Shown here piece by piece: positions 3,994 to 18,915 of a stretch of 64,000 nt of DNA. The DNA is taken from NCBI RefSeq assembly GCF_020723905.1, contig NZ_DYHZ01000001.1:303501-367500 (forward strand). The letters are read 5' to 3'. The DNA comes from Anaerolinea thermophila. Lineage in GTDB: Bacteria > Chloroflexota > Anaerolineae > Anaerolineales > Anaerolineaceae. The position numbers and the translations under genes are program-made. The stretch's first letter is position 1. Each line of letters begins with the position of its first letter. A model generated the notes under the pieces. It had not been told where the DNA came from, did no database searches, and saw only the letters and a list, made by a program, of their open reading frames with translations.

Positions 3994-4305
3994 ATTTTAT
4001 CTGACGCAGGGTGTTTTTACTCACCTTACATTTAAAGAATAACATAGAGTACTGACTGGTACAATCTTCTGAAGAGACTTCAACCCTTCTGGCGGGTGAA
4101 AGCAATCCGGGCGCAATCCATCCATAGATTTTGTGAGATTATGACGGACAAAACCGATGGGAAACGCTTATGTCATCTGGGGCAAAAAGGTTTTCAGAAA
4201 GCCCTGCCATCCCCCTGAAAAGCATACACAAACATGATACAAGCACCCCTCGAACGGTTAAATCCCATGTATATTATCATCAGAAATCAACAGGAGGAAC
4301 CTGAT
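3994..4305. other. Intergenic region between divergent genes
   Basis: About 310 bases separate the hybrid kinase (minus) from the unknown gene at 4306 (plus), so promoters in both directions are expected. TAAAAT directly before the kinase ATG and TATATT at about 4270 before the right-hand gene could be -10 boxes, but neither has a convincing -35 partner. I see no RNA gene, repeat or terminator here. Confidence 0.3.
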
Positions 4306-4887
4306 ATGACTCACCCCCAACCTGCGGAATTATTCATCCAGTTTTTCCACAAAGTCCTGCCGGCTTATTCTCCTCAGGCGGATAATCTTCTTTCCCAGAT
4401 TGATCCCGAAACCCTTTCCTCTTTGAATTTCCGCTACATTTTCTCAGTAGAAAAAATGATTGAAATCAGCCATATGATTGAGGACGCTGTTATGCATGCT
4501 CAGCGCCCTGCAGATTTTCATGTCTCCTTCCAACTGTTCTCCCGTCTCCAGGATCAAATAACCCGCTACCAGGAACTTGCCGGGAAGGTTGAATGCTTAC
4601 GGATATATGGCGTTCCGGATGTCCCTCCCGTAGAATTGCCGAATACCGTTTATATTGACACCTCAAACACTCCTCTCACGAAATACTGGTTTCTGGTTGC
4701 CTACGCCCCTGATTTAAGCATGACGCTTGTAGCAGAAGAGATCCCCTCTCCCCTTTCTGCTCCTGCTCAGCGGAGTTATGAAGGGTTTTATACCTTCGAA
4801 ACCGAGATTGCCTATAAGGTGCTCAACCTGATACATCAGATTTTCCCGGAATCCATTCCTGCTCCCATCCCTCCTGAGTTACTTTAA
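4306..4887 (+). CDS. Protein of unknown function, 193 aa
   Basis: I do not recognise this family. The ATG at 4306 is preceded by AGGAGG with good spacing; an upstream in-frame ATG at 4234 has no ribosome site and would add 24 unlikely residues. The product is soluble, with no signal peptide or membrane span, and slightly acidic. It is rich in Pro, Phe and Gln. The N-terminal half looks mostly helical (QLFSRLQDQITRYQELAGKV), and the middle contains VYIDTSNTPLTKYWFLVAYAPDLSMTLVAEE, probably beta strands. The FAD oxidoreductase gene begins four bases after its stop, so the two are probably co-transcribed and translationally coupled. A link to that enzyme is a guess from position only. Confidence 0.6.
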   Translation: MTHPQPAELFIQFFHKVLPAYSPQADNLLSQIDPETLSSLNFRYIFSVEKMIEISHMIEDAVMHAQRPADFHVSFQLFSRLQDQITRYQELAGKVECLRIYGVPDVPPVELPNTVYIDTSNTPLTKYWFLVAYAPDLSMTLVAEEIPSPLSAPAQRSYEGFYTFETEIAYKVLNLIHQIFPESIPAPIPPELL

Positions 4888-6337: not shown

Positions 6338-6368
6338 CAAAGCATCTGATTTCTGTGTCTCACATCAC

Positions 6369-6396
6369 TTGACCCGGTGTGGGTTTGTTCTATACT
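6369..6396 (+). promoter_or_regulatory. Sigma-70-type promoter of the CRISPR-Cas operon
   Basis: TTGACC (6369-6374) and TATACT (6391-6396) are separated by 16 bases. A transcript would start about 18 bases before the ATG at 6421, leaving room for the AAGGAAAGGTG ribosome site. It is the only good promoter I see ahead of the same-strand run of genes ending with cas2. Confidence 0.55.
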
Positions 6397-6420
6397 GATA
6401 AGGAAAGGTGACACTCCCTG

Positions 6421-7320
6421 ATGATGCCGTTCCTGCACCATCACCCATCTACGCTTATCGCAACGCTGGGGAGCGAGCCACAGGTGATTACCGCGGGGCT
6501 GGATGTATTGCTGGCAAAAGGGGAAAATATTCAGCGAGTAGAGATCATCCACACCAGCGCATCCGCAGGTCACCCCATCCATGAAGCGGTTGAACGACTC
6601 CAACAATCCCGTCAGGATTACAGCGCACCCTTAAGGGAAGCATTCTATTTTCATCCTGTACGGGTCAATGGCAAACCCGTTGTGGATGTGGAAAGTTCCG
6701 CTGCCAGTCAGGCGGTATTTCGTTTGCTGTATACCTGTGTGTGGGAAGCCAAACAACGCGAGGATACCGTGCACCTGCTGATTGCCGGCGGAAGGAAGAC
6801 CATGTCCATTTACGGCATGGTTGTGGCGCAAATGCTTTTTGACGAGACAGATCACCTCTGGCATTTGTTCTCCGAGGGAGAATTTCTGACCTCCAAACGC
6901 CTGCACCCTCAGCCAGGCGATCGAGTGGAATTGAGCGAAATTCCGGTCATCCGCTGGAGTGAGATTTCTCCCATTGTAAGCAGTTTGCGTACCATCCGGG
7001 ATGCTGCCATGGCACTGGAGAGCATCCGCTCTTTCCAGATGGAACGCCGGAGCAAAGAAGTGGAGCGTTTTGTAGAAAGCCAATTGACCCCAGGGGAAAA
7101 GCGGGTGGTGGCTTGCCTCCTGGAGGAAGGCGAAGGAGATGAAGATATCGCCGCCCGCCTTCATCTTTCTCCGCGCACGGTGGAACAACACCTGCGATCG
7201 GTGTATGCCAAAGCACAGTCCTTTTGGGGGTTGGAGCGAGTCACCCGATCCAGTTTAATTGTGTTGCTCAGTCCATACCGATGGACAAATATAGGGGAAA
7301 ACCCGCATGACAAGTCATAA
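6421..7320 (+). CDS. CARF-like (NE0113-type) CRISPR protein fused to a LuxR-type DNA-binding domain
   Basis: 299 residues in two parts. Residues 11-170 resemble the NE0113 CRISPR-associated family, whose Rossmann-like fold binds cyclic oligoadenylates: TLGSEPQVIT (15-24) matches its first strand-loop, and the LLIAGGRKTM loop (119-128) matches its second conserved loop. Residues 222-284 are a LuxR/GerE helix-turn-helix: LTPGEKRVV, then DEDIAARLHLSPRTVEQHL, with the recognition helix at about 250-264. A helical stretch (about 181-220) joins them. By analogy with Csa3, a CARF protein with a winged helix, it should be a transcription factor switched by the Cas10 messenger. Some NE0113-like proteins are called ring nucleases, so it might also degrade the messenger. 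It is the first gene of the Csm operon and the one nearest the promoter, which suits autoregulation. Family is inferred from motifs; function is untested. Confidence 0.7.
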   Translation: MMPFLHHHPSTLIATLGSEPQVITAGLDVLLAKGENIQRVEIIHTSASAGHPIHEAVERLQQSRQDYSAPLREAFYFHPVRVNGKPVVDVESSAASQAVFRLLYTCVWEAKQREDTVHLLIAGGRKTMSIYGMVVAQMLFDETDHLWHLFSEGEFLTSKRLHPQPGDRVELSEIPVIRWSEISPIVSSLRTIRDAAMALESIRSFQMERRSKEVERFVESQLTPGEKRVVACLLEEGEGDEDIAARLHLSPRTVEQHLRSVYAKAQSFWGLERVTRSSLIVLLSPYRWTNIGENPHDKS

Positions 7321-7446
7321 GAAATTCGATACACTCAAAATGCTTATGCTGTTCGTCGAAGGGCTGGAGGGGGAAGGACACCAGCCAGGGGGGAAATGAC
7401 CGACGAGCAGCATTTCCTTTACTATGTGGACTTAAGGAGGGAACGC

Positions 7447-9969
7447 ATGAACGAACAGGTTTTCTACGCGGCGCTGGCAGGACTGTTGCACGACATTGGA
7501 AAGTTTGCCCTGCGGGCAGGAGAGGGTGCCACCCGTGTGTGGGATGATTCGGCACAGCGCGACTACAAATACAAACACGCCCTGCTCAGTGAAGATTTTG
7601 TTCAAAAATATGTCCCCGAGGTCTGGCAGAGCCAGATTAAACTGGCAGTTGGCGGGCACCACACTCCGCACAACCGTCTGGCGAATGCCGTAGCGCTGGC
7701 TGACCGCCTTTCGGCAGGGGAGCGCGCCGACCCCATCCCCAATGAAGAAAAGCGAGACAACCACCCGGCACAGTTGGTCTCCATTTTCTCAGATGTGCAT
7801 CTTCAAGCAGATAAGGTGGAGGATGTCTACTGGCCCTTAAGAGCCCTGGAATTGAGTGAGAAGAGTCTCTTCCCTACCGGTAAGAAAGATAATCCCTGGA
7901 AGGAGTACGAGCAACTGTATAACGATTTCGCCCAACGGGTAAGCAGGTTAAAAGATGCTTTTCAGGGCAGCAACCATCTGCCTCTCTATCTCGAAAGCCT
8001 GCTGGCAGAAATGCAGACAGCGCTATGGTGTGTTCCCTCGGCATATTACAACACCAGACCAGACATCAGCCTTTACGATCACAGCCGCATGACCGCCGCA
8101 CTGACAGCGGCACTGTATGACAGTTCGATGCTGACCGATGAACAGTTGAATGAATTTGCCCGCCAGCCTGAAGCAGTTGACCAGGAACTGGTGGTGCTGG
8201 TTGGCGGTGACCTGACCGGCGTGCAGAGTTTTCTTTACACCATCACCTCGCGCGGCGCAGCCAGCGGCCTGCGCGGACGTTCGTTTTATCTGCAATTGCT
8301 GGGGCTGGTGATTGCCCGCTTTGTGCTGAATCAACTCGATCTACCCATCACCAACCTGATTTACGCTGGCGGCGGCAATTTTTACCTGATTGCCCGCCGG
8401 GAAGACGCTAAAAAACTGCCCGAAATTCAGGCGCAGGTCTCCCGTGCCCTCTTCAACGAGCATCAGGGCGAATTGGGGTTGATTTTGCAGGCACGCCCGC
8501 TGAATGGCCAGCACTTTTTCAATGGCAACATTCGCACCGAATGGGACGGGCTGATCGGCCAAATTAACGCCGCCAAGTTGAAGCGTCTGGAAGGGCTGGA
8601 GGCGGATCTTGCCCGCGTCTTTGAGCCACATGGTGTGGGTGGAAGTACGCCGCAACAGTGCGCCGTGTGCGGACGGGAGCACTCCGGGGTCAAAGTGAGG
8701 CAGGTGGATGAAGGTGTGGCGCAAACGGTCAACAAATGCCCGGTGTGCGAATCCTACGAAGAACTGGGCAAACTGCTGCGCAAGGCACAATACCTGGTGT
8801 TACAGCCGTGCAAACCTGACCTGCCAGATCAGATTACCCTGCAAGCCGGACGCGGATGGCAGGAAATGACCCGCCGCTTCGGTTATCAGGTAGAGGTGCT
8901 GGAGGAACTCAAGCATGAGCCGCAGGGAATTGTGTTTGCGCTGAACGACAACGCCTGGCACGCCCGCACGCCGCACCCAAGCCGCGCCATTGCCCGCTAC
9001 CTGCTGGTCAATGTGACGCCGATTCTGACCGAACAGGAGCATAAAGATCTGTACGGCAAGGTAGATGATCTGCCCGTAGCGGGTTCGGTCAAGCCGCTGA
9101 GCGTTCTGGAGGAGCAGGCACACGGCATCCGGCGCGTGGGAGTTCTGCGCATGGATGTGGACAACCTCGGCAAAATCTTTGCTGAGGGATTGGGCAAAAA
9201 TGCCACCCTTTCGCGAATTGCATCGCTCAGTTTTACCATCAGCCTGTTCTTTGAGGGCTGGGTGGGGCAGATTGCCGAACACATGAAGAAAGAATATGGC
9301 GAACGTCTGTATTCCATTTACTCCGGCGGTGATGATCTGTTCTTTGTGGGCAGTTGGGATGCGGTGGTGGAATTTGCCATCCGACTGCGGCGCGACCTGA
9401 GCCGGTTTACCGGCAACCACCCCGATATTCATCCAAGCGGCGGAATCGTGCTGGTGGGCGGCAAATACCCGCTGTATCAGGCTGCCGAAGAAGCCGGCGC
9501 TGCCGAAGAACAGGCAAAGGCATACCGGTGGTGGGAAAACAGCAAAGAGCGGGAAAAAGACGCGCTCAGTTTTCTGGGACAGGCGCTCAACTGGCAGCGG
9601 TTTGGCTACCATGACTGTGAGTCACCAGACGAAAATACCGCGCATGCCCTGATGCACCGCTTGAAGGAGATGGTGCAGGATAATCAGAACCGCGCCCTGA
9701 TTGGCAAACTGATTCGCCTGCACGAGTTATACCTGAACGCCCTGGAAAAACGGCAGAAGAAGGGCGAGGATGTCAACCGGAATCATCAACAGCAGGTCTT
9801 GTGGGGGCCCTGGAACTGGCTGGCGGAGTATCACCTCAGCCGCATCAAAGGTGTACCCAAACAAGATGTGGATGAACTGCGCGAACGCCTGAAACGGGAT
9901 CAATTCCGTAGCATTGAATGGATTGGATTGGCTGCCCGCTGGGCAGAGTTGATAACCCGCAAATCTTGA
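7447..9969 (+). CDS. csm1: Cas10/Csm1, type III-A large subunit
   Basis: 840 residues. The ATG at 7447 follows AAGGAGGGA and starts the protein six residues before the HD domain; the upstream ATG at 7396 lacks a ribosome site. The N-terminal HD nuclease is intact by eye: His15-Asp16 in LLHDIGK, then GGHHTP and ALADRL. The two CxxC pairs Cys405/Cys408 and Cys431/Cys434 form the zinc-binding site. The second Palm domain has the GGDD motif at 627-630 (YSGGDDLFF), which in this family makes cyclic oligoadenylates from ATP once target RNA is bound. The chain should therefore both cut DNA and signal. It is followed by csm2 at 13 bases and is part of one long operon. A 126-base gap with no recognised feature separates it from the regulator gene upstream. 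Confidence 0.97.
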   Translation: MNEQVFYAALAGLLHDIGKFALRAGEGATRVWDDSAQRDYKYKHALLSEDFVQKYVPEVWQSQIKLAVGGHHTPHNRLANAVALADRLSAGERADPIPNEEKRDNHPAQLVSIFSDVHLQADKVEDVYWPLRALELSEKSLFPTGKKDNPWKEYEQLYNDFAQRVSRLKDAFQGSNHLPLYLESLLAEMQTALWCVPSAYYNTRPDISLYDHSRMTAALTAALYDSSMLTDEQLNEFARQPEAVDQELVVLVGGDLTGVQSFLYTITSRGAASGLRGRSFYLQLLGLVIARFVLNQLDLPITNLIYAGGGNFYLIARREDAKKLPEIQAQVSRALFNEHQGELGLILQARPLNGQHFFNGNIRTEWDGLIGQINAAKLKRLEGLEADLARVFEPHGVGGSTPQQCAVCGREHSGVKVRQVDEGVAQTVNKCPVCESYEELGKLLRKAQYLVLQPCKPDLPDQITLQAGRGWQEMTRRFGYQVEVLEELKHEPQGIVFALNDNAWHARTPHPSRAIARYLLVNVTPILTEQEHKDLYGKVDDLPVAGSVKPLSVLEEQAHGIRRVGVLRMDVDNLGKIFAEGLGKNATLSRIASLSFTISLFFEGWVGQIAEHMKKEYGERLYSIYSGGDDLFFVGSWDAVVEFAIRLRRDLSRFTGNHPDIHPSGGIVLVGGKYPLYQAAEEAGAAEEQAKAYRWWENSKEREKDALSFLGQALNWQRFGYHDCESPDENTAHALMHRLKEMVQDNQNRALIGKLIRLHELYLNALEKRQKKGEDVNRNHQQQVLWGPWNWLAEYHLSRIKGVPKQDVDELRERLKRDQFRSIEWIGLAARWAELITRKS

Positions 9970-9982
9970 CAGGAGGAATGAG

Positions 9983-10414
9983 ATGAGTGCAATAACCGAA
10001 AACGACGTAAAAAAGATCATCACCCAGGATGCAACCGGTGAACTGCTGGTGCGAATGGCAGACAATTTCGGAAAGGAGTTGAAAGAACTGAATCTTTCCA
10101 CCAGCCAGATTCGCAGCCTGTTCGGAGAGGTGCGTCAGATTCAGGGCGAATGGGCGGTTGCCCGCCAGAAAGGACCGCAGGCAGAGGCTGAGCGCCAGAA
10201 GGTGCTGCGCCGGCTGATTCTGCTCAAACCCAAGATGGAATACCGCGCCCGCCGCGAGCGCGGTCAGGCGGTGCGCACGCTGGTGGACGTGCTGAAACCG
10301 GCACTGGATGCGGTGACCCAGGCACCAGCCGACAAGCAGGATGAGTACTTCAACCGCTTCGTCGAATTCTTCGAAGCCATTCTTGCCTACCACAAAGCCT
10401 ATGGCGGTAACTAA
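9983..10414 (+). CDS. csm2: Csm2, small subunit of the type III-A complex
   Basis: 143 residues, almost entirely helical and highly charged, as expected for the Csm small subunit that lines the crRNA-target duplex. AGGAGG lies six bases before the ATG at 9983. The opening, NDVKKIITQDATGELLVRMA, and the FNRFVEFFEAILAYHK end match the family. It sits between csm1 and csm3 in the usual order. Nothing is missing or unusual. Confidence 0.93.
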   Translation: MSAITENDVKKIITQDATGELLVRMADNFGKELKELNLSTSQIRSLFGEVRQIQGEWAVARQKGPQAEAERQKVLRRLILLKPKMEYRARRERGQAVRTLVDVLKPALDAVTQAPADKQDEYFNRFVEFFEAILAYHKAYGGN

Positions 10415-10447
10415 TACCCCGCACAGTTTCAATTTCAGGAGGTTATG

Positions 10448-11257
10448 ATGAACAACAACAGCATTCAACTCAAAGGGCGCGTTTTGATTCGTTTCGATGT
10501 GGTTGCCAAAACCGGGCTGCACATTGGCGGCACCGAATCCGGCATTGAAATTGGCGGGGTGGACAAAACCGTCATCCGCGACCCGCTGACCAACCGCCCC
10601 TACATCCCTGGCTCCAGCCTGCGCGGCAAGATGCGCAGTTTGCTGGAAAAGTACAAAGGGCTGAAGCAAAACCAGCGCATTGGACAGGGATACATCCATT
10701 CCTGCGGAGCAGACAAGAGCGATACCCTGCAAACCTATCTGAATTGTGATGTCTGCACCACCTTTGGCGTGCCGGGCGAACGCGACTTTGCCACCCCCAC
10801 CCGCCTGATTGTGCGGGATGTCTTCATGAACGAGGACAGTGCAAGACAACTGGAAGATGCCGGCACCGACCTGCCCTATACCGAGGTGAAGACTGAAGTT
10901 TCGATTGACCGGGTCACATCGGCAGCCAACCCACGCCAGATGGAGCGTGTGCCAGCCGGTACCCGTTTCAGCGGGGCGGAACTGGTGTACTCCATCTATG
11001 ATGGGGCGAACTGCGACGCCAGAAAGGATGTGGAACGCCTGAAAGTGATTGTTGAAGGGCTGCAGTTGTTGCTGGATGATTACCTGGGCGGGCTGGGCAG
11101 CCGCGGTTCCGGCAAGGTGGATATCGAAGAGATTTGTGTGGAATGGCGCGGTAAGGATTACAGCGCCAAACCGATCGAACTGGGCAAATTTAAAACGGTT
11201 GCAGATTTTGCTGGCGGGCTGGCTTCGCTCCAGCAAACCATCCTTTCTCAGTTATAG
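10448..11257 (+). CDS. csm3: Csm3, backbone subunit and target-RNA nuclease
   Basis: 269 residues from the second of two adjacent ATGs; AGGAGG at 10437-10442 is five bases from 10448 but only two from 10445. It is a RAMP protein with the family text TGLHIGG and YIPGSSLRGKMRSL. Asp39, in GGVD, aligns with the catalytic Asp33 of Streptococcus thermophilus Csm3, so target RNA should be cut every six bases. The late glycine-rich loop GGLGSRGSGKV is present. A Cys-bearing insertion, SCGADKSDTLQTYLNCDVC, may bind a metal; it is absent from the streptococcal protein as I remember it. Confidence 0.96.
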   Translation: MNNNSIQLKGRVLIRFDVVAKTGLHIGGTESGIEIGGVDKTVIRDPLTNRPYIPGSSLRGKMRSLLEKYKGLKQNQRIGQGYIHSCGADKSDTLQTYLNCDVCTTFGVPGERDFATPTRLIVRDVFMNEDSARQLEDAGTDLPYTEVKTEVSIDRVTSAANPRQMERVPAGTRFSGAELVYSIYDGANCDARKDVERLKVIVEGLQLLLDDYLGGLGSRGSGKVDIEEICVEWRGKDYSAKPIELGKFKTVADFAGGLASLQQTILSQL

Positions 11258-11266
11258 GAGGGTGTT

Positions 11267-12385
11267 ATGCCACCCTTTGAAGTGTATGCCCTCAAACTGA
11301 AGGGCGCTATACGGGTTGGAAGGCGCGGACTGGAACTGGAAGATACCCTTGCAACCATTCCTTCGGATACGCTGTTCAGTGCGTTGACGTCTGCGCTGAC
11401 CGCCTGTGGGGAGGATCCAGCGGCTTTCTTACAGCCTTTTCTCAGCGATCCGCCCCAGCCGCCCTTTTTGCTGACTTCCACCTTTCCATACGCCGGCGGG
11501 GTACGCTTTTACCCGGCGCCGCTGGACTGGACAGGCACGCTCAGCACAGATAACCTGCGCGATTACGGAAAACGAATCAAAAAAGTCCAGTTTCTGTCTG
11601 AAGGGTTATTCCGGCGTCTGCTGCAGGGTGAGCCGCTGGATGAGTTCCTTTTTCCGAAGGAGGAACATCAGCCGCCCGAGAAGGGAGTCACCCTGCAGGG
11701 CTGGCAGTTGTGGCTGACGGTGGAAGAAGTCAAATTCCTGCCGCCCGCCATGCAATTGCCAGAAAATAAACGGTTTGCCCTGCGGCGCCAGAAGGTGTGG
11801 CAGCGCGCCCGTCAGCCTCACGTCACCGTGGACCGCATCCGTCAAGCATCAGATATTTTCCACACTGTGCAGATTCATTTCCAAAAAGGGTGCGGGTTGT
11901 GGTTTGGCGTGCAGTGGCTGGTAGATGAACAGCATCCCAGCCGGGCGCTGTTGCGGCAGGCGGTTGACTATCTGCAATTGAGCGGGCTGGGCGGTAAACG
12001 CTCCATCGGCTTTGGCGGATTTGAAGTGTGCGAGGGCTTCCCGCAAAACCTGCCTTGGGAACTGCCCACCGTCCGTCCTGGTGAAGCGGTTTTCCTGCTC
12101 AGCCGCTACCACCCGCGCCCTGCGGAACTGCCGGATGCGCTGAAAAATGGCCGCTATCAGTTGATCAGCGTGGGCGGCTGGAGCGACCCCTCTGGCAGGG
12201 AAAATTTGTTGCGCCAGCGCGTACTGATGGTCAGCGAAGGCAGCCGCCTGTTTCTGCCCGAATACCCGGCCGGAAATGTATGCGATGTTTCGCCGCGTCA
12301 GGCGGGCAGTCTGCCGCACCCCATTTACCGCTACGGGCTGGCTTGCGGGGCAGGGTTGAAGGCGCAAGGAGGTAAACATGCCTGA
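11267..12385 (+). CDS. csm4: Csm4, crRNA 5'-handle-binding subunit
   Basis: 372 residues. A GGAGGG ribosome site precedes the ATG at 11267, ten bases after csm3. The start, FEVYALKLKGAIRVGR, is the first RAMP strand. DTLATIPSDTLFSALTSAL is the typical Csm4 segment, and the glycine-rich loop SGLGGKRSIGFGGFEV lies at about 240-255. Csm4 caps the complex at the 5' end of the crRNA and contacts Cas10. The length is somewhat above the common 300 residues, with extra C-terminal sequence. Its last eight bases overlap csm5, which points to coupled translation. Confidence 0.93.
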   Translation: MPPFEVYALKLKGAIRVGRRGLELEDTLATIPSDTLFSALTSALTACGEDPAAFLQPFLSDPPQPPFLLTSTFPYAGGVRFYPAPLDWTGTLSTDNLRDYGKRIKKVQFLSEGLFRRLLQGEPLDEFLFPKEEHQPPEKGVTLQGWQLWLTVEEVKFLPPAMQLPENKRFALRRQKVWQRARQPHVTVDRIRQASDIFHTVQIHFQKGCGLWFGVQWLVDEQHPSRALLRQAVDYLQLSGLGGKRSIGFGGFEVCEGFPQNLPWELPTVRPGEAVFLLSRYHPRPAELPDALKNGRYQLISVGGWSDPSGRENLLRQRVLMVSEGSRLFLPEYPAGNVCDVSPRQAGSLPHPIYRYGLACGAGLKAQGGKHA

Positions 12386-13517
12386 ATATACGCTCTTCGA
12401 GGTGCAGGTTTCCACGATCACCCCGTTGCACATCGGCAGCGGAGTGGAACTGCTCAATCAGTATGATTACGCCATTCACAGCGGTCAAACCTGGCGAATT
12501 GACCACAACCGTCTGCTGGAAGCGCAGAAGATTGACGACCCGCGCCAGCTGGCGATTATCTCCCAACGACCACCGCAGGAACTGCTCGAAGAGAGCGACT
12601 ACCGTCCGGACAGCCCCTTCTTCCGCTATGTTCTCAAGGGCGTGCCGCGCGCTACCGGCGAGGGTGCCGTGCTGCGCGAGCAACTTAAGGATGTCTATGA
12701 CCGCCCGTACCTGCCCGGCAGTTCCCTGAAGGGCGCCCTGCGCACCGCGCTGGCGGCTGGTCTGTGGAAACAGCAGGGCTTACGGTTGGACATCAGCCGC
12801 CTGGGTCGGAACCCCAAATTTGCCGCGCAGGAACTGGAACGCTCTCTGCTGGGCGCCAATCCCAACCGGGACCTGCTGCGCGCCCTGCAGATCAGCGACA
12901 GTTTGCCATTGCCTGCCAGCCAGACCTTGATGGTTGTGAACGCGCGGGTGATTAACCGCGGCGGCAAACTGGCTTCGCCCATCGAAATGGAAGCCATTCG
13001 TCCGGATGTAACCTTTGAACTGACCATGAAAGTGGACACGGCGCTGTTTTCCGAGTGGGCAAAACACGCCGGACTGAAATTCAACGCCGAGAGCGCCCTG
13101 CTGGGGCTTCCGGCACTGGTCAACAGACGATCGCTGGAACAGGCGCGCCGTGAAAAAGCCTGGTTTGCGAATATTCCCAATGCCGGGGGACTGATCTCAT
13201 TCTACGACCAGATCCTGAAAAGCAACCTGAAGCCCAACCAGATGCTGGTGTGTCTGGGCTGGGGCACCGGCTGGGAAAGCAAAACCTTTGGGGAGCAGAT
13301 GTTTTCCAGCCAGCAGGTGCGCGAGGCGCTGCTGCGGCAGTTCCACATGGCGCGCGGACGACGCAAATCTGAGGACCCCTTCCCCCTCTCACGCCGGGTG
13401 GCGGCCTCTTTTAAGAAAGCCGCAGACGGAAGGGTGTATGAAACTCCTGCCCTGCCGCTGGGATGGGTGCTGGTGCAGTTTAAGGTGGTTAAGGGAAACC
13501 AATCCCTGTGGAGGTGA
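12378..13517 (+). CDS. csm5: Csm5, crRNA 3'-end subunit
   Basis: 379 residues. The ribosome site AAGGAGG and the ATG at 12378 lie inside the end of csm4. The start, FEVQVSTITPLHIGSG, is the first RAMP strand and glycine loop, and YLPGSSLKGALRTAL (about 112-126) is the family signature. WGTGWESKTFG near the C-terminus is typical of the Csm5 glycine-rich region. The subunit sits at the 3' end of the crRNA and helps its trimming. Its stop codon at 13515-13517 falls within the csx1 ribosome-binding stretch, so the two are tightly linked. Confidence 0.93.
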   Translation: MPEYTLFEVQVSTITPLHIGSGVELLNQYDYAIHSGQTWRIDHNRLLEAQKIDDPRQLAIISQRPPQELLEESDYRPDSPFFRYVLKGVPRATGEGAVLREQLKDVYDRPYLPGSSLKGALRTALAAGLWKQQGLRLDISRLGRNPKFAAQELERSLLGANPNRDLLRALQISDSLPLPASQTLMVVNARVINRGGKLASPIEMEAIRPDVTFELTMKVDTALFSEWAKHAGLKFNAESALLGLPALVNRRSLEQARREKAWFANIPNAGGLISFYDQILKSNLKPNQMLVCLGWGTGWESKTFGEQMFSSQQVREALLRQFHMARGRRKSEDPFPLSRRVAASFKKAADGRVYETPALPLGWVLVQFKVVKGNQSLWR

Positions 13518-13519
13518 AT

Positions 13520-14857
13520 ATGACGCATACGGTCATTACGTTTATGAGCGCAACCCCGCGTGAAACTACCTATCAATTTGCATACGATCCAGAAACTTAT
13601 TCCGGCATGATATTTGGTGAAGCCCTCTTAAGTCGTCGCAGAAAAGAAAAAATGCCCTTTGACCGTCTCTTGTTGTGTGTCACCGATAGTCTGTATGAAG
13701 AATTGGAAAAGTTTAATAAAGGGCAGATTGATGATGAAAATAGGCTGCCCTATCTTGAAAAAGTCAAGAAAATATTGAACGATCTCGAAAATGAACCAGA
13801 TGTTGAAATTCTCAAAATAAAGACAGGCAGAAACACAAACGAAGTTTGGGATATTTTCAACACGGTGACCGAGAGAATTGAAAAGGAAGAGCAGGTTTCG
13901 TTTGACATTACCCATGGGCTGCGTTCAATTCCTTTCATGGTCTTTCTTTTTGCCGCATTTCTGAAATCTGCAAAAGATGTGGAAATTAAGGCAATTTTAT
14001 ACGGTGCTGCTGACTTGACGGATAAAACTACAAACGTTGCTCCGGTGATTGACCTGACCCCCTTTGTGGAAATGCTGGACTGGATCAACGCAACCGAGTT
14101 CTTTGTAAAAACCGGCAATGCAGAACCGATGGCACACCTGCTTGAAAAGAGAGGGGAGAGAAAACAAAACGAAGCGGCTCGTGTGCTGCGCGATATATCT
14201 AAGGCTGCTTCCTTATGCCAGCCTTTCAGCCTCGCAGAAAAAGCTGCCAGATTAGATCAATCTCTGAAAAAAGCCGCCGAATCGTTTTCTCATACCTCTA
14301 AACCGTTTTCTATTTTGGCAAATCGCATCGTAGAAGTTTATCAACCGTTCGTCTTGCCAAAATCGATCAATAAAGACCAAATTTTATCAGACAAGGATGC
14401 GCTGGATTTTTTGAAGCAGGAATGGCATTTGATTGAATGGTATCGTAAGAATGGACAAATTCTTCAAGCATTTACGCTGGCACGCGAGTACGCTGTTGAT
14501 CTTGTCATGTGGCGAATTCGAAAATCTATCCATTTTGATCTGAAAAAGCGTGAAGAAACCAGTCAGACCATTACGGAGATAGCCAAACTTTCTCAAAAAG
14601 ATAGTCAAATCTCTTTGGGCTTGCAATGGCTTCAACAGAATGAAAACGAGGCTAAAGAAGTATCCCAATTCCTTAACGAAATCTTTCAAACGAGAAATGA
14701 TTTGGCTCACGCGGGACATAAATCCAGCGGGATGAGTTTAAGCACCCTTGAAAAAAAAGAAGCTCTTCTAGACAAACTTGCCCAACAATGCGAGTGCTGG
14801 GGCATTCCCTCTCCGGTCGAAGTCCCGCCCTCCGATGCGGGTACACACCCTGATTAG
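13520..14857 (+). CDS. csx1: Csx1-type CARF-HEPN ribonuclease (DxTHG family)
   Basis: 445 residues from the ATG at 13520, five bases after GGAGG; an in-frame GTG at 13508 overlaps csm5 and is less likely. The N-terminal CARF domain has the DxTHG motif at 129-133 (DITHGLRSIP), used to bind cyclic tetra-adenylate in this family. The C-terminal HEPN domain carries R-x4-H as Arg392-His397 (RNDLAH), the RNA-cutting site. Target recognition by Cas10 would thus switch on unspecific RNA cleavage. The DNA is visibly AT-richer than every neighbouring gene, with frequent AAA, GAA and AAT codons, while csm5 before it and csx15 after it are GC-rich. This suggests a separate origin. Family assignment is firm; the exact messenger size is inferred. 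Confidence 0.92.
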   Translation: MTHTVITFMSATPRETTYQFAYDPETYSGMIFGEALLSRRRKEKMPFDRLLLCVTDSLYEELEKFNKGQIDDENRLPYLEKVKKILNDLENEPDVEILKIKTGRNTNEVWDIFNTVTERIEKEEQVSFDITHGLRSIPFMVFLFAAFLKSAKDVEIKAILYGAADLTDKTTNVAPVIDLTPFVEMLDWINATEFFVKTGNAEPMAHLLEKRGERKQNEAARVLRDISKAASLCQPFSLAEKAARLDQSLKKAAESFSHTSKPFSILANRIVEVYQPFVLPKSINKDQILSDKDALDFLKQEWHLIEWYRKNGQILQAFTLAREYAVDLVMWRIRKSIHFDLKKREETSQTITEIAKLSQKDSQISLGLQWLQQNENEAKEVSQFLNEIFQTRNDLAHAGHKSSGMSLSTLEKKEALLDKLAQQCECWGIPSPVEVPPSDAGTHPD

Positions 14858-14867
14858 AGGTATTCCC

Positions 14868-15272
14868 ATGCTTTTACTCAACTTTTCTCACCCGCTTACC
14901 CCTGCGCAAATGGCGCAGATCGAAGCCCTCACCCAGCAACCTCTGGAAAAGGTGCTGGACTTTGCCGTGCATTTTGATAACAACGAACCTTTTATCCCGC
15001 AACTGCGCGCGCTGATGGAGCAAATCCCGCTCACCCCCGCTCAGTGGCAGAATGAGGCGGTTCTCGTCAACCCGCCTTCGCTTAATTTCATCACCGCCCT
15101 GCTCCTTGCCGAACTGCACGGGCGCATGGGGTACTTCCCCCCCATCGTGCGTCTGCGCCCCAGGGCGGGCAGTCTACCCCCTCAGTACGAGGTGGCAGAA
15201 ATCCTGAACCTGAACGAGGTACGCGAACGCGCCCGCGCCAACCGCTACATCTCCGGAGGCAATGGAGCATGA
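14868..15272 (+). CDS. csx15: Csx15, small CRISPR accessory protein and candidate ring nuclease
   Basis: 134 residues from the ATG at 14868, with AGAGGT just upstream; an earlier in-frame ATG lies deep inside csx1 and is unlikely. MLLLNFSHPLTPAQ, LVNPPSLNFI and LAELHGRMGYFPPIVRLRP are text I recognise from Csx15. Proteins of this group have been proposed to bind or degrade cyclic oligoadenylates. Its place directly after the messenger-activated nuclease fits an off-switch. The stop overlaps the cas6 start by four bases (ATGA), so it belongs to the operon. GC content returns to the level of the locus here. Activity cannot be read from sequence. Confidence 0.85.
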   Translation: MLLLNFSHPLTPAQMAQIEALTQQPLEKVLDFAVHFDNNEPFIPQLRALMEQIPLTPAQWQNEAVLVNPPSLNFITALLLAELHGRMGYFPPIVRLRPRAGSLPPQYEVAEILNLNEVRERARANRYISGGNGA

Positions 15273-16126
15273 GCGCGGTTTCCCCACTGCTCTCGCTGGT
15301 GCTGACCCTGCGCCCCGTGGATAGCGACCGTCCTGAGGGAACTTTGCCGCGCTGGTGGGGACGCGCGGCGCATGCCCTGCTGCTGGACACGGTGCGCCGC
15401 GCCGATGCCGCGCTGGCAAAATCGCTCCACGATGAAAGCGCGCTCAAGCCCTTCACCGTCTCCAGTTTGATGGGGCATTTCTCCGGCGGAAAACTCGATT
15501 CCCGGCAAACCTGCACCCTGCGCTTCACCGCGCTGATCCCCGAACTGGCGCACATCCTGCTGGACTCCTTCCAGCCCGGGCGCGAAGTACAACTGGACTA
15601 TCAGAGGTTCCGCATTGAAGCCGTCGCCCAACAGCCCGGGGAACATGCGTGGGCGGGAAACAGCGCCTGGGAAGTCCTGGCAGGAAATTCCATTATGGGG
15701 AACACGCCGCCGCGGCGCGTCTCCCTGCTGTTTGCCAGCCCTACCACCTTTCGAGTGAACGAGCGCCTGATCCCCCTGCCACTGCCCGACCTGGTTTTCA
15801 ACAGTTTACTGCAGCGCTGGAACGCGTATGCCCCGCTGGCATTTCCCGAGGAAGTGCGCCGATACGCCGCTGAATGTCTGCAAATTTCCGCCTACCGCCT
15901 GAACAGCGCGGCAGTGCGTACGCAGGAAGACGCCCTGCGCATTGGAGGGGTGGGGCAGGTGACCTTCACCGCCCGCCCCTACGACCGCTACTGGATGAGC
16001 ATCATCCACACCCTGGCGCAGTTTGCCCTGTATGCCGGGGTGGGAGCCTCCACCACAATGGGACTGGGACAGGCGCGGATGATGATGCCCTCCGAAGATC
16101 AACACCGAGAACATTCTGAACCTTAA
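15269..16126 (+). CDS. cas6: Cas6 pre-crRNA endoribonuclease
   Basis: 285 residues with two ferredoxin-like RAMP halves. The C-terminal glycine-rich loop GVGASTTMGLGQARM (about 260-274) is the Cas6 signature. His35, in WGRAAHALLL, is at the usual place for the catalytic histidine. It cuts the repeat transcript eight bases from its 3' end, leaving each crRNA with the repeat-derived 5' tag ATTAAGAC. It starts inside the last codons of csx15 and is followed 30 bases later by cas1. Confidence 0.93.
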   Translation: MSAVSPLLSLVLTLRPVDSDRPEGTLPRWWGRAAHALLLDTVRRADAALAKSLHDESALKPFTVSSLMGHFSGGKLDSRQTCTLRFTALIPELAHILLDSFQPGREVQLDYQRFRIEAVAQQPGEHAWAGNSAWEVLAGNSIMGNTPPRRVSLLFASPTTFRVNERLIPLPLPDLVFNSLLQRWNAYAPLAFPEEVRRYAAECLQISAYRLNSAAVRTQEDALRIGGVGQVTFTARPYDRYWMSIIHTLAQFALYAGVGASTTMGLGQARMMMPSEDQHREHSEP

Positions 16127-16156: not shown

Positions 16157-17170
16157 ATGCCTCCACTGTATGTCGTCCAGCAAAACAGCAAATTACGCCT
16201 GAACAACCGGCGCGTGCAGGTGGAACAGGAAACCGATGAAGGTACGCAGGTGCTGGTCCAGATTCCCATCGGTCAGGTCTCTGAAATTGTGCTGTTCGGC
16301 AACATCGGGCTGACCACGCCGCTCATTGATGCTCTGCTCTATGAAGGGATTCCGGTCATCTTTCTGACCCGCGATGGCGATTACCGCGGCTCGCTGAACG
16401 GAACGCTGACCCCGCATGTGCCTCTCCGGCGGGCACAGTACCGCGCCCTGGAAAAGCCGGCGTTTATCCTCGAAATGGCAAAAGGGTTGGTGCGCGCCAA
16501 GTTGCGTCATCAACGCACCCTGCTGCAACGGCACAACCGTCCCCCGCAATCGGATCCAGAGATTGCTCAAGTGATCGAGCGGATGGGGCAAGCCATAGAT
16601 GAGGTCGAACGCAAAACCAGTCTTTCCAGTCTGCGCGGGCTGGAAGGAGCGGCTACAGCGGCATACTTCAGCGGCTACCGGCGGCTCTTTGACCCCGAAT
16701 GGAAGTTTGACGCCCGCCTGAGACGCCCGCCGCCCGATCCGGTCAACGCCCTGCTTTCACTGGGGTACACCCTGCTGGCGCAGGACTGCGCCGCCGCCGT
16801 ACAGGCGGTGGGACTGGACCCTTACGCCGGTTTCCTTCACGAGGTGGCATACAACCGTCCGGCGCTGGGGTTAGACCTGCTGGAGGAATTTCGCCCACTG
16901 GTGGACGGGGTCGTGCTGTGGGTATGTCGTTCGGGTAAGATTCGCCCCGATCAATTTACGCCGGGACCTCCCGAACGCCCGGTTGTGCTGGATGAGACCG
17001 GAAAACGCGACTTCATCTACGCCTTTGAAGAACGTATGGACACGCGCTTCACCCATCCACTGGCAAAACAGTCGTTAACGATGCGCCAGTGCCTCATCGA
17101 GCAGGCACGCCAGATTGCGCACCGCATTCTGGAAGACCGACCAGGCTATGAGGATATGGGCTTCCGCTGA
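16157..17170 (+). CDS. cas1: Cas1 integrase
   Basis: 337 residues, normal length. An AAGGGGGAG ribosome site precedes the ATG at 16157. The N-terminal beta domain has IPIGQVSEIVLFGNIGLTTP, and the helical domain holds the metal ligands: Glu163 (LRGLEGAATAAYF), His228 (FLHEVAYNRP) and the acidic group Asp240-Leu-Leu-Glu243-Glu244 (LDLLEEFRP). Together with Cas2 it inserts new spacers. A one-base overlap with cas2 (TGATG) shows coupling. No reverse transcriptase is fused or adjacent, so spacers are probably taken from DNA. Confidence 0.97.
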   Translation: MPPLYVVQQNSKLRLNNRRVQVEQETDEGTQVLVQIPIGQVSEIVLFGNIGLTTPLIDALLYEGIPVIFLTRDGDYRGSLNGTLTPHVPLRRAQYRALEKPAFILEMAKGLVRAKLRHQRTLLQRHNRPPQSDPEIAQVIERMGQAIDEVERKTSLSSLRGLEGAATAAYFSGYRRLFDPEWKFDARLRRPPPDPVNALLSLGYTLLAQDCAAAVQAVGLDPYAGFLHEVAYNRPALGLDLLEEFRPLVDGVVLWVCRSGKIRPDQFTPGPPERPVVLDETGKRDFIYAFEERMDTRFTHPLAKQSLTMRQCLIEQARQIAHRILEDRPGYEDMGFR

Positions 17171-17460
17171 TGAGCGAAGGGCGCAGTTTTTACGTGCTGG
17201 CATACGATATCAGCGACGACCGCCGCCGTCTGAAACTGGCGCGGCTGATGGAATCGCTGGGGGTGCGCGTGCAGGGCAGTGTGTTTGAAGCCTACCTGAC
17301 CGCGCGCGAACTGGAACATCTTTTGCGCCGATGCAGGAAAATCATGAAGACGGAAGAAGACAGTTTGCGCATTTACCGCCTGTGCGCCGCCTGCCGGCAG
17401 GAAATCCGAACTGAAGGAAAAGGACATGTGACCCCACCACCGCAGGTCACCGTGATTTAA
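17170..17460 (+). CDS. cas2: Cas2 adaptation subunit
   Basis: 96 residues. FYVLAYDISDDRRRLKLARL contains the conserved first-strand aspartate (Asp13), and GVRVQGSVFEAYL is the second family motif. It forms the structural core of the Cas1-Cas2 integrase. It is the last gene of the operon; the leader and array begin right after its stop, so the integrase genes sit at the end where new spacers enter. A large perfect inverted repeat begins six bases downstream. Confidence 0.96.
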   Translation: MSEGRSFYVLAYDISDDRRRLKLARLMESLGVRVQGSVFEAYLTARELEHLLRRCRKIMKTEEDSLRIYRLCAACRQEIRTEGKGHVTPPPQVTVI

Positions 17461-17614: not shown

Positions 17615-17674
17615 GGAAACAGTTCCCCCTGCGGGGGCACTTCTACCGGCAGGTAGTGGATGGGCAAAAGTGCA

Positions 17675-18819
17675 GTCTGAATCAAAGAAGACCCGAAAGG
17701 GTATTAAGACGCATTTCGTGACCAGGTAGAACGGGAACTTCTGGCATTTGGTCTGAATCAAAGAAGACCCGAAAGGGTATTAAGACGCTCCCGCGATTTT
17801 CACAGTCTTTAAATCTTTGAAGGTCAGTCTGAATCAAAGAAGACCCGAAAGGGTATTAAGACTCCAGACGGACTGGAAGACGTCTTTCACGTGGCTCTTG
17901 GTCTGAATCAAAGAAGACCCGAAAGGGTATTAAGACAGATGAGATTGCTGCATGGTGGCGCAGTCAAGGGATTGTGGGTCTGAATCAAAGAAGACCCGAA
18001 AGGGTATTAAGACATCACGGCGGTGAACAGGATGTCACCCCTAGCGTCTGTTTGTCTGAATCAAAGAAGACCCGAAAGGGTATTAAGACATTCTCTCGAA
18101 AATTGGGAGAAGGCTTGGCGTGTCGGTCTGAATCAAAGAAGACCCGAAAGGGTATTAAGACGCACGTGACACGGGCTCGCGCGTCGCAAAGCCGCCCATG
18201 GGTCTGAATCAAAGAAGACCCGAAAGGGTATTAAGACTTTCTGAGAGGATTTTTCTCAAGTGCTTCCTTGTACAGTCTGAATCAAAGAAGACCCGAAAGG
18301 GTATTAAGACGGATAGGGTTTGGAGCGAAATCCTGAAGAGGTGCGACGGTCTGAATCAAAGAAGACCCGAAAGGGTATTAAGACATAAACATCAACCCAA
18401 TATCTTTCATAGTCTTGCGCAATTAGTCTGAATCAAAGAAGACCCGAAAGGGTATTAAGACTGCAATGAGTAATTCACGCTTTTCGTCCATGTTGCCTCA
18501 GAGTCTGAATCAAAGAAGACCCGAAAGGGTATTAAGACTTTATATATAGCGCGATTTTTTTCGTGAGTTCCATTTTTTGTCTGAATCAAAGAAGACCCGA
18601 AAGGGTATTAAGACACTCTTATCTCGTCCACGTCATTGCCCCAGTAGGTCGGTCTGAATCAAAGAAGACCCGAAAGGGTATTAAGACGGTTTAGCCGTAG
18701 CCGGTGTGTCTGAATCAAAGAAGACCCGAAAGGGTATTAAGACATTTGAGCGATTGCGCTCAAATCATAGCGACCCACAATATGTCTGAATCAAAGAAGA
18801 CCCGAAAGGGTATTCAAGT
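17675..18819 (+). CRISPR. CRISPR array, 16 repeats of 36 bases and 15 spacers
   Basis: The repeat starts GTCTGAATCA, has a central ACCC-GAAA-GGGT hairpin, and ends ATTAAGAC. Repeats begin at 17675, 17751, 17827, 17901, 17978, 18054, 18126, 18202, 18275, 18349, 18426, 18503, 18579, 18652, 18708 and 18784. Repeats 1-15 appear identical. Repeat 16 matches for 31 bases and then diverges (CAAGT in place of AAGAC), as expected at the leader-distal end. Spacers are 36-41 bases except spacer 14 (18688-18707), which is only 20. Spacer 15 (18744-18783) contains a 9-bp perfect hairpin. The leader lies on the cas2 side, and transcription runs rightward. Confidence 0.99.
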
Positions 18820-18915
18820 AAAAACGGCGAAGGGGGAAAATGACAATCGCCGTCCTGTTCCACAAATATTCAAACCAATCTGATTGGAAAACCTCTTGAA
18901 GACCGCGTCGAACAC

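Follow-up and report, generated by a model that had tools for sequence, protein, structure and literature searches.

Organization of the III-A locus

We analysed a stretch of 64,000 nucleotides from Anaerolinea thermophila (NCBI RefSeq assembly GCF_020723905.1, contig NZ_DYHZ01000001.1, positions 303,501 to 367,500 of the forward strand), hereafter the window, in which coordinates are counted from the first letter. A type III-A operon lies on one strand in the order regulator-cas10-csm2-csm3-csm4-csm5-csx1-csx15-cas6, followed by cas1, cas2 and a CRISPR array:

6421-7320 (+), CARF-LuxR(GerE) regulator gene, 299 aa (ORF, Pfam, PADLOC, AlphaFold2)
6445-6960 (+), CARF domain of the regulator, residues 9-180, Cas_NE0113/CARF3 type; G17-S18-E19 is motif I, G124-R125-K126 is motif II
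7084-7299 (+), GerE/LuxR-type helix-turn-helix (HTH) of the regulator, residues 222-293; recognition helix 251-269 at 7171-7227
7447-9969 (+), cas10/csm1, HD domain and GGDD; start placed by AAGGAGGG immediately 5', the ORF being open from 7396 too
9983-10414 (+), csm2 (profile matches)
10445-11257 (+), csm3 (profile match)
11267-12385 (+), csm4 (profile matches)
12378-13517 (+), csm5 (profile match)
13508-14857 (+), csx1-type CARF-HEPN effector (TIGR02221; PADLOC CARF2--CARF_HEPN; searched from 13520)
14868-15272 (+), csx15 (NF040560, 168.3 bits)
15269-16126 (+), cas6 (profile matches)
16157-17170 (+), presumably cas1 (tblastn relatives)
17170-17460 (+), presumably cas2 (tblastn relatives)
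17661-18825 (+), CRISPR array, 16 repeat copies

Assignment to III-A was based on TIGR02578 (660 bits) and on TIGR01870, TIGR02582, TIGR01903 and TIGR01899, all of which scored over their cut-offs. A member of the Csx15 family has been reported to degrade cA4, i.e., to be a ring nuclease (PMC13148439). Within the array, one repeat-to-repeat step (18638-18749) measures 56 nt vs. 72-77 nt elsewhere, leaving a spacer of ~20 nt. The second gene upstream of the regulator (ORF 4234-4884) encodes a DICT sensory domain (PF10069, 50.2 bits).

A CARF domain joined to a LuxR-type HTH

Pfam placed PF09623 (Cas_NE0113) on residues 19-184 of the regulator (114.7 bits, E 6.8e-33, cut-off 23) and PF00196 (GerE) on residues 221-264 (30.2 bits, E 3.4e-7, cut-off 23.5), the latter match covering positions 2-44 of the 57-position model. 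The PADLOC profile PDLC01851 matched residues 10-289 (E 5.7e-107); the PADLOC profiles span nearly the whole protein, and their model names mention no HTH. When the whole regulator was modelled by AlphaFold2 with an alignment of 100 homologues (pLDDT 94.2, pTM 0.87), the strands and helices of the CARF domain extended to about residue 177 and were followed by a long helix (195-221) and by the HTH helices 224-236, 240-247, 251-269, and 276-293. Compared with known folds, the CARF half was closest to Cad1-CARF (Z 18.1), Sso2081 (Z 17.3), and Sis0455 (Z 17.1).

Since CARF domain matches filled the entire VIA-align list of the whole-protein model, in which no GerE fold appeared, we modelled residues 190-299 separately, with 60 of the 100 homologue segments aligned (pLDDT 86.4). 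The fold matches of this model were EL222 (Z 10.8), FixJ (10.3), VraR (9.9), DosR (9.8), and NarL (9.5), with an rmsd of 1.5-1.7 Å over 65-66 residues to the isolated VraR, DosR and NarL domains. Some sigma region-4 domains matched it comparably (Z up to 9.8), and Foldseek E-values were weak (best 0.014, with nothing at E <= 0.001). The sequence profile of the family matched VraR (E 7.5e-11), NarL (E 3.2e-10), and Sso2081 (E 5e-10). DSSP assigned four helices and zero strands to the C-terminal domain in both regulator models, and the best matches were GerE folds; the MarR-like winged HTH that marks Csa3 was thus not found in this domain, and the Csa3 model TIGR01884 scored 18.1 bits on the regulator against a cut-off of 60.2.

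The first-pass annotation, made from the sequence alone, had read this ORF as an NE0113-type CARF domain fused to a LuxR-type HTH at the head of a Csm operon, and Pfam, predicted structure and the III-A gene order bear it out. Residues 222-284 are predicted to form a tetrahelical HTH with GerE-type matches (weak ones where Foldseek is taken by itself), while the N-terminal half has the predicted CARF fold and its G-R-K motif; the loops PQVIT (residues 20-24) and GGRKTM (residues 123-128), which the annotation had singled out, line up with motif I and motif II of the CARF domains of ring nucleases. On the profile matches and the predicted structures, we regard it as confirmed that ORF 6421-7320 encodes a Cas_NE0113-type CARF domain joined to a GerE/LuxR tetrahelical HTH.

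Distribution and genomic context of the family

Homologue loci were drawn from the best matches (100 regions, rather than every match, were retrieved). Of 106 family hits, 6 that were partial, split or weak were set aside, which left 100 full-length homologues. PF09623 matched 100/100 of these and GerE 91/100 at E <= 0.01. Since the PADLOC profiles PDLC01851, PDLC01855, and PDLC01036 also matched 100/100 (E <= 1e-10), the family is already contained in a public library, where it is labelled CARF3--CARF or WYL/Csx1 'CARF+WYL C'. In the organism's own family, Anaerolineaceae, 56 of 147 genomes matched at E <= 0.001, in many cases via the HTH alone; the class sample had regulator matches in 118 of 396 genomes (E <= 1e-12) and the phylum sample in 56 of 400 (E <= 1e-25). 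A scan of a named collection, which used the motifs of one clade and is no measure of range in other phyla, returned 104 relatives, of which 80 were kept; their titles named Chloroflexota with two exceptions, an unplaced bacterium and a Gammaproteobacteria MAG on a 3-kb contig. Isolates with homologues include Chloroflexus islandicus, Ktedonobacter racemifer, and Thermogemmatispora. No relatives were found in viral contigs.

At least 2.5 kb of upstream and at least 3 kb of downstream DNA were available for 65 of the 100 loci, and 9 of these 65 had no recognised core type III gene. In 54 of the 56 remaining loci, the regulator headed the type III operon with every same-strand core gene downstream of it, the exceptions being one locus with the regulator last (L041) and one with the regulator divergent (L136). 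This position was common to III-A loci, III-B (Cmr) loci and other loci with a Cmr2-like Cas10. The regulator tended to occur together with Cas10: among the 396 genomes, both were present in 91, the regulator only in 27, Cas10 only in 67, and neither in 211, counts from related genomes for which a Fisher test overstates significance; some of the 27 regulator-only genomes arise because the Cas10 model missed Cmr2-like Cas10 proteins (G149, L139). GGDD or GADD was present in 70 of 71 Cas10-like ORFs.

Ring-nuclease-family genes were frequent in the 100 loci (Csx15 in 38, AAA-Csx3-like in 49, both in 7), AAA-Csx3 being counted by similarity to one seed in which the Csx3 domain was confirmed (56.5 bits); among the 68 loci that span 12 kb or more, 7 had neither Csx15 nor AAA-Csx3. 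A divergent P-loop gene stood back to back with the regulator, sharing its upstream region, in 39/100 loci (including L114, L127, L128, L134, L106, L091, L100, L104, L142, and L118); in the single member scanned it was an AAA-Csx3 (Crn3-type) gene. One homologue (L042, G140 C45) had no recognised type III gene nearby, and from their sequences we take its neighbours to be a Clp/AAA chaperone and an Hsp70-like protein. In another (L026:6679-7545, G005), an in-frame TAG splits the CARF part from the linker and HTH, with operator and -10 (see below) intact.

A candidate operator in front of cas10

The regulatory sites predicted around the regulator gene are:

6369-6396 (+), predicted promoter-like site of the CARF-HTH gene, TTGACC-16-TATACT
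7291-7308 (+), candidate operator ATAGGGGAAAACCCGCAT, a 7-4-7 palindrome sharing its DNA with the 3' end of the regulator gene; no second exact copy in the genome
7307-7312 (+), -35 hexamer ATGACA of the predicted cas10 promoter; 2-nt overlap with the operator
7330-7335 (+), -10 hexamer TACACT of the predicted cas10 promoter, 21 nt downstream of the operator; transcription predicted to start at ~7342
7342-7446 (+), predicted cas10 leader, with stem 7346-7358/7401-7413 around G-rich loops

The DNA immediately 5' of the regulator gene (6338-6420) had been proposed as its target. This proposal was not supported: no shared operator was found there, and the conserved candidate operator lies instead at 7291-7308, before cas10. 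Upstream regions were searched for exact dyads, perfect inverted repeats by spacer, mismatched dyads and single words; in close relatives these searches revealed no shared operator, and only a -10 box stood above shuffles. Over all loci, perfect 8-nt inverted repeats showed a mild excess upstream (14, against a shuffled mean of 5 and maximum of 13), with no common word. The dyad GGCGGnCCGCC, present in 10/99 upstream regions, was rejected as an operator, as it represents P-loop codons of the divergent gene.

A word search of the upstream regions directed attention to the DNA that separates regulator and cas10, where palindromes were seen among the gap sequences listed. In a model-free count of perfect inverted repeats (7-nt arms, spacers of 3-5 nt), 17/98 gap regions contained such a repeat vs. 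3.3 in shuffled sequences; the same count gave 5/96 upstream of the regulator (2.8 shuffled) and 3/100 in the coding region (4.3). The recognition helix and the gene context, judged by eye and without a tree, served to assign loci to three clades, and the 22 of 101 loci that received no assignment were left unscored in the model test. An operator hit was a score that at most one of 200 dinucleotide shuffles reached, with the locus itself left out of the model. By this measure, the III-A operator (consensus ~ATASGGG-AAAA-YCCGCAT) was found in 18/20 loci, the III-B-type operator (ATAGGAA-aAAa-TTCCcAT) in 14/17, and the third-clade operator (ATCAGAG-aaat-cTCTGAa) in 16/42, all from seeds first picked by eye in sequences that were later scored; 26/42 third-clade and 3/17 III-B-type loci had no operator at threshold. 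A 22-nt version of the III-A model hit 17/20 loci, missing L031, L034, and L069.

Outside its own clade, and upstream of the regulator, each model hit 0-3 loci per set, as shown by the numbers of loci with hits (models in the order III-A, III-B-type, third clade):

III-A loci: gap 18, 3, 0 of 20; upstream of regulator 0, 0, 1 of 19
III-B-type loci: gap 0, 14, 0 of 17; upstream of regulator 1, 3, 0 of 17
Third-clade loci: gap 1, 3, 16 of 42; upstream of regulator 1, 1, 2 of 40

For comparison, we took type III loci from 20 genomes, out of 67 that had Cas10 but no regulator at E <= 1e-12; in two of them the upstream DNA was too short, and 2 of the 18 scored had operator hits. In one such genome (L282, G317 C82), a strong third-clade operator precedes cas10, with a -10 at 43 nt.

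In the window, the 22-nt III-A pattern has one match, where 0.00 are expected at <=3 mismatches, and in the whole genome the exact 18-nt operator occurs once. Further genome matches with 2 or 3 mismatches numbered 15, vs. 5 for a reversed control pattern; the best of them, with 2 mismatches, is at L256, where the ORFs alone were inspected.

Promoter geometry and the cas10 leader

The 18-nt operator model did not include the -10 box. In III-A, a TAnnnT box lay exactly 21 nt past the operator in 18/19 loci (mean per offset 0.3), L031 being left out. Among loci with a significant operator hit, the -10 lay at 43-44 nt past the operator in 11/14 III-B-type and 11/16 third-clade loci. With the -10 set at -12 to -7, the operator is centred at -42.5 in III-A and at about -64.5/-65.5 in the III-B-type and third clades, in which a weaker repeat often lies near -42.5 too. 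Since the distance of the III-A operator from the regulator stop codon varies from -41 to +88, the constraint acts on the DNA and not on the protein tail; given this variation and the fixed -10 spacing, we rejected mere protein coding as the reason for operator conservation.

The promoter elements bear on the direction of control. III-A -35 and -10 boxes have means of 4.3 and 4.2 of 6 consensus matches, respectively (18 loci), and the -35 of the window (ATGACA) has 5/6; third-clade -35 boxes are weaker (mean 3.2 of 6, 13 loci). LuxR/NarL-type activators are expected to have sites near -42.5 and further upstream, at ~-65. The regulator might conceivably be a repressor that, when free, sits over the cas10 -35 and is released by the messenger, so that the first cA4 derepresses the operon. 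The III-A palindrome does overlap the -35 by 2 nt, and repression is conceivable because a promoter with fairly good III-A boxes, and with a -35 of 5/6 in the window, might fire without an activator. However, a centre at -42.5 in III-A, and in most scored loci of the other clades a better site at ~-65 with a weaker one at ~-42.5, is the layout expected of an activator, and the third-clade -35 boxes are weak; for these reasons activation is preferred and we consider repression, the main alternative, unlikely, if worth keeping in mind.

The III-A cas10 leaders were compared over a set comprising 7342-7446 of the window and the gaps of L024-L030, L032-L036, L067, L075, and L076. They have a 5'-anchored stem of mostly unrelated sequence from locus to locus, and at least two runs of at least four G are present in 15/17 loops. 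The mean folding z was -2.0, with 10/17 leaders below -2 and 5/17 stems significant alone. Rfam gave three chance-level matches in the window, none of them at the cas10 leader. It is possible that the leader stem forms a second layer of control.

Recognition helix and paralogous circuits

To see where the clades differ within the protein, 14 III-A and 7 III-B-type proteins were compared in windows of 17 residues. The five most clade-discriminating of the 271 windows start at residues 251-255, i.e., in the recognition helix. In three genomes with two circuits (the window's own included, and a fourth, with the split gene L026, excluded), paralogues share 36-42% identity in the CARF domain vs. 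18-29% in the recognition helix. The second circuit of the window's own genome (L023, G000 C10:137686-145907) comprises a CARF-HTH paralogue with a separate operator, together with a Cmr operon and Csx15; its exact III-B operator occurs once in that genome, immediately behind the L023 gene. Recognition helix and operator differ in parallel between clades, which would be unexpected of a vestigial HTH.

Sensor or ring nuclease

The CARF domain has the fold of the Crn1/Csx14 enzymes Sso2081 and Sis0455 (Z about 17) and the same G-R-K in motif II. Ser11 of motif I is an important residue for cleavage in Sso2081, as Arg105/Lys106 of motif II are both in binding and in catalysis; motif I has been proposed as a signature of cleaving CARFs, and in Sis0455 the motif-I serine is seemingly not critical (PMC10018336). 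Unlike these enzymes, the regulator has an added HTH, and across its family the Crn1 serine position is occupied by Q (48), E (34), K (9), R (5), G (2), or A (1), with S or T in 0/99 members that have the residue; in the window regulator it is E19. By contrast with this loss, motif II is largely retained among the 100 homologues (G124 in 100, R125 in 90, K or R at 126 in 100), R125 being replaced in 10 members by P (9) or S (1). Asp75 of Sso2081 aligns near S92 of the regulator. Because the Crn1 serine is replaced in 99/99 members while G-R-K/R is mostly retained, we expect the regulator to be a sensor that would bind the messenger, not a ring nuclease.

Could the protein nonetheless be a Crn1/Csx14-like ring nuclease whose HTH is merely structural, as in the wHTH of Sso1393? 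Sso2081 is among its closest CARF relatives, by sequence profile and by fold, and the best NCBIfam matches are Csx14 and 'ring nuclease Csm6', both under cut-off; for the Crn1/Csx14 ring-nuclease models, TIGR03642 gave 65.4 vs. 90.35 bits and TIGR02584 39.9 vs. 80.65 bits. Sso1393, which consists of a CARF domain plus a wHTH, is described as degrading cA4 (PMC10018336). Against this, the family has lost the motif-I serine, a separate Csx15 or AAA-Csx3 gene is present in 61/68 loci of at least 12 kb, and the HTH and operator vary together. On these three grounds, ring nuclease activity was rejected as the main role, and we regard it as very improbable.

Proposed mechanism

With a probability of roughly 0.6, we consider the regulator to be a transcription factor that responds to the cyclic oligoadenylate of its own Cas10 by acting on the main promoter of the operon, most likely as an activator. 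The reading builds on the computed fold of both halves, the position at the operon head, the operator at its constant distance from the promoter and the parallel change of the recognition helix; from these we infer dimerisation, messenger binding, binding of the protein to the operator, and activation over repression. The regulator would be made from its own promoter (6369-6396) and form a dimer held by the CARF domains and probably by the LuxR-type domains too. The pair of HTHs would bind the palindrome at 7291-7308, whose centre falls at -42.5 relative to a second promoter (7307-7335). A messenger bound between the two CARF domains, most likely cA4, would act through the long helix 195-221 to change how the two HTHs are placed relative to each other. 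The messenger-bound regulator would then most likely activate the transcription of cas10-csm-csx1-csx15. This would amount to positive feedback, which Csx15 would dampen by destroying cA4. The first-pass annotation suggested that such a fusion, leading a Csm operon, might put transcription under the control of the Cas10 messenger; as judged from sequence and models, this is supported as a possibility.

The closest precedent is Csa3, a transcription factor with a CARF domain and a MarR-like winged HTH that has been studied in archaea, often with type I-A systems. Like the regulator, it has an N-terminal CARF domain and a C-terminal HTH, and it regulates cas genes in the manner of a messenger-linked transcription factor, the role proposed here for the regulator; its structure (2wte_A) aligns over both regulator domains (residues 9-291, Z 11.8), but with an rmsd of 12.6. 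The ligand cA4 has been shown for Csa3, and in vitro the promoter binding of the Saccharolobus protein is independent of cA4 (PMC8844856); therefore, messenger control of DNA binding is not to be assumed. The regulator might accordingly act as a local transcription factor that binds the operator irrespective of cyclic oligoadenylate, the CARF domain tuning stability or partner contacts, or sensing another nucleotide. What Csa3Sso does in vitro, i.e., bind cA4 and yet bind its promoter specifically without it, fits such a behaviour (PMC8844856), but motif II is conserved and the family is linked to Cas10 proteins in which a GGDD-type motif is retained, and we consider it improbable beside control by the messenger.

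Relation to known systems and significance

The regulator differs from Csa3 in having a GerE/LuxR tetrahelical HTH and an NE0113/CARF3-type CARF domain, in residing in bacterial Chloroflexota type III operons, and in its palindrome at -42.5 of cas10. It belongs, over nearly its full length, to the NE0113/CARF3 proteins (PF09623; PDLC01851, PDLC01855, PDLC01036). With LuxR/NarL/FixJ-type regulators (VraR, NarL, DosR, EL222), it shares the tetrahelical GerE domain. The lux box is a palindromic site at -42.5, and the palindrome of the regulator lies at the same position; the input of those proteins is a receiver, autoinducer-binding or LOV domain, whereas that of the regulator is a CRISPR CARF domain.

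The locus had been put forward as an undescribed regulatory arrangement, which stands in one respect and falls in another. We found no paper on the LuxR-type domain, the operator or the distribution of the NE0113 group, within a search that did not reach the 2020 CARF classification, which may list the architecture. Regulation of transcription by NE0113 CARF proteins was, however, already predicted in 2014 (PMC4012209), and the PADLOC profiles exist. A 2025 ring-nuclease survey limited proteins to 250 aa, which would have excluded the 299-aa regulator (PMC12409355), and a large 2024 survey put transcriptional regulators aside for later (PMC11229360); these two choices may explain why we came across no discussion of the NE0113 CARF-LuxR group. 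CARF-HTH transcription factors as such are known from Csa3, while the NE0113-LuxR protein together with its operator looks like a new regulator-operator system.

The roles of CARF-HTH proteins in type III loci have been little studied. The family described here offers a bacterial CARF-HTH protein with a candidate operator, a candidate promoter and a natural specificity swap, in which three recognition helices go with three palindromes; control of defence transcription by the Cas10 messenger is therefore testable. More tentatively, at somewhat short of even odds, we propose that in many Chloroflexota type III operons the Cas10 messenger activates the Cas10 operon via a CARF-LuxR protein at -42.5, in parallel variants (III-A, III-B, third clade) that would allow two circuits per cell without cross-talk. 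If true, such a messenger-driven loop would revise models of the strength and duration of type III immunity, and the messenger-gated promoter could serve as a tool.
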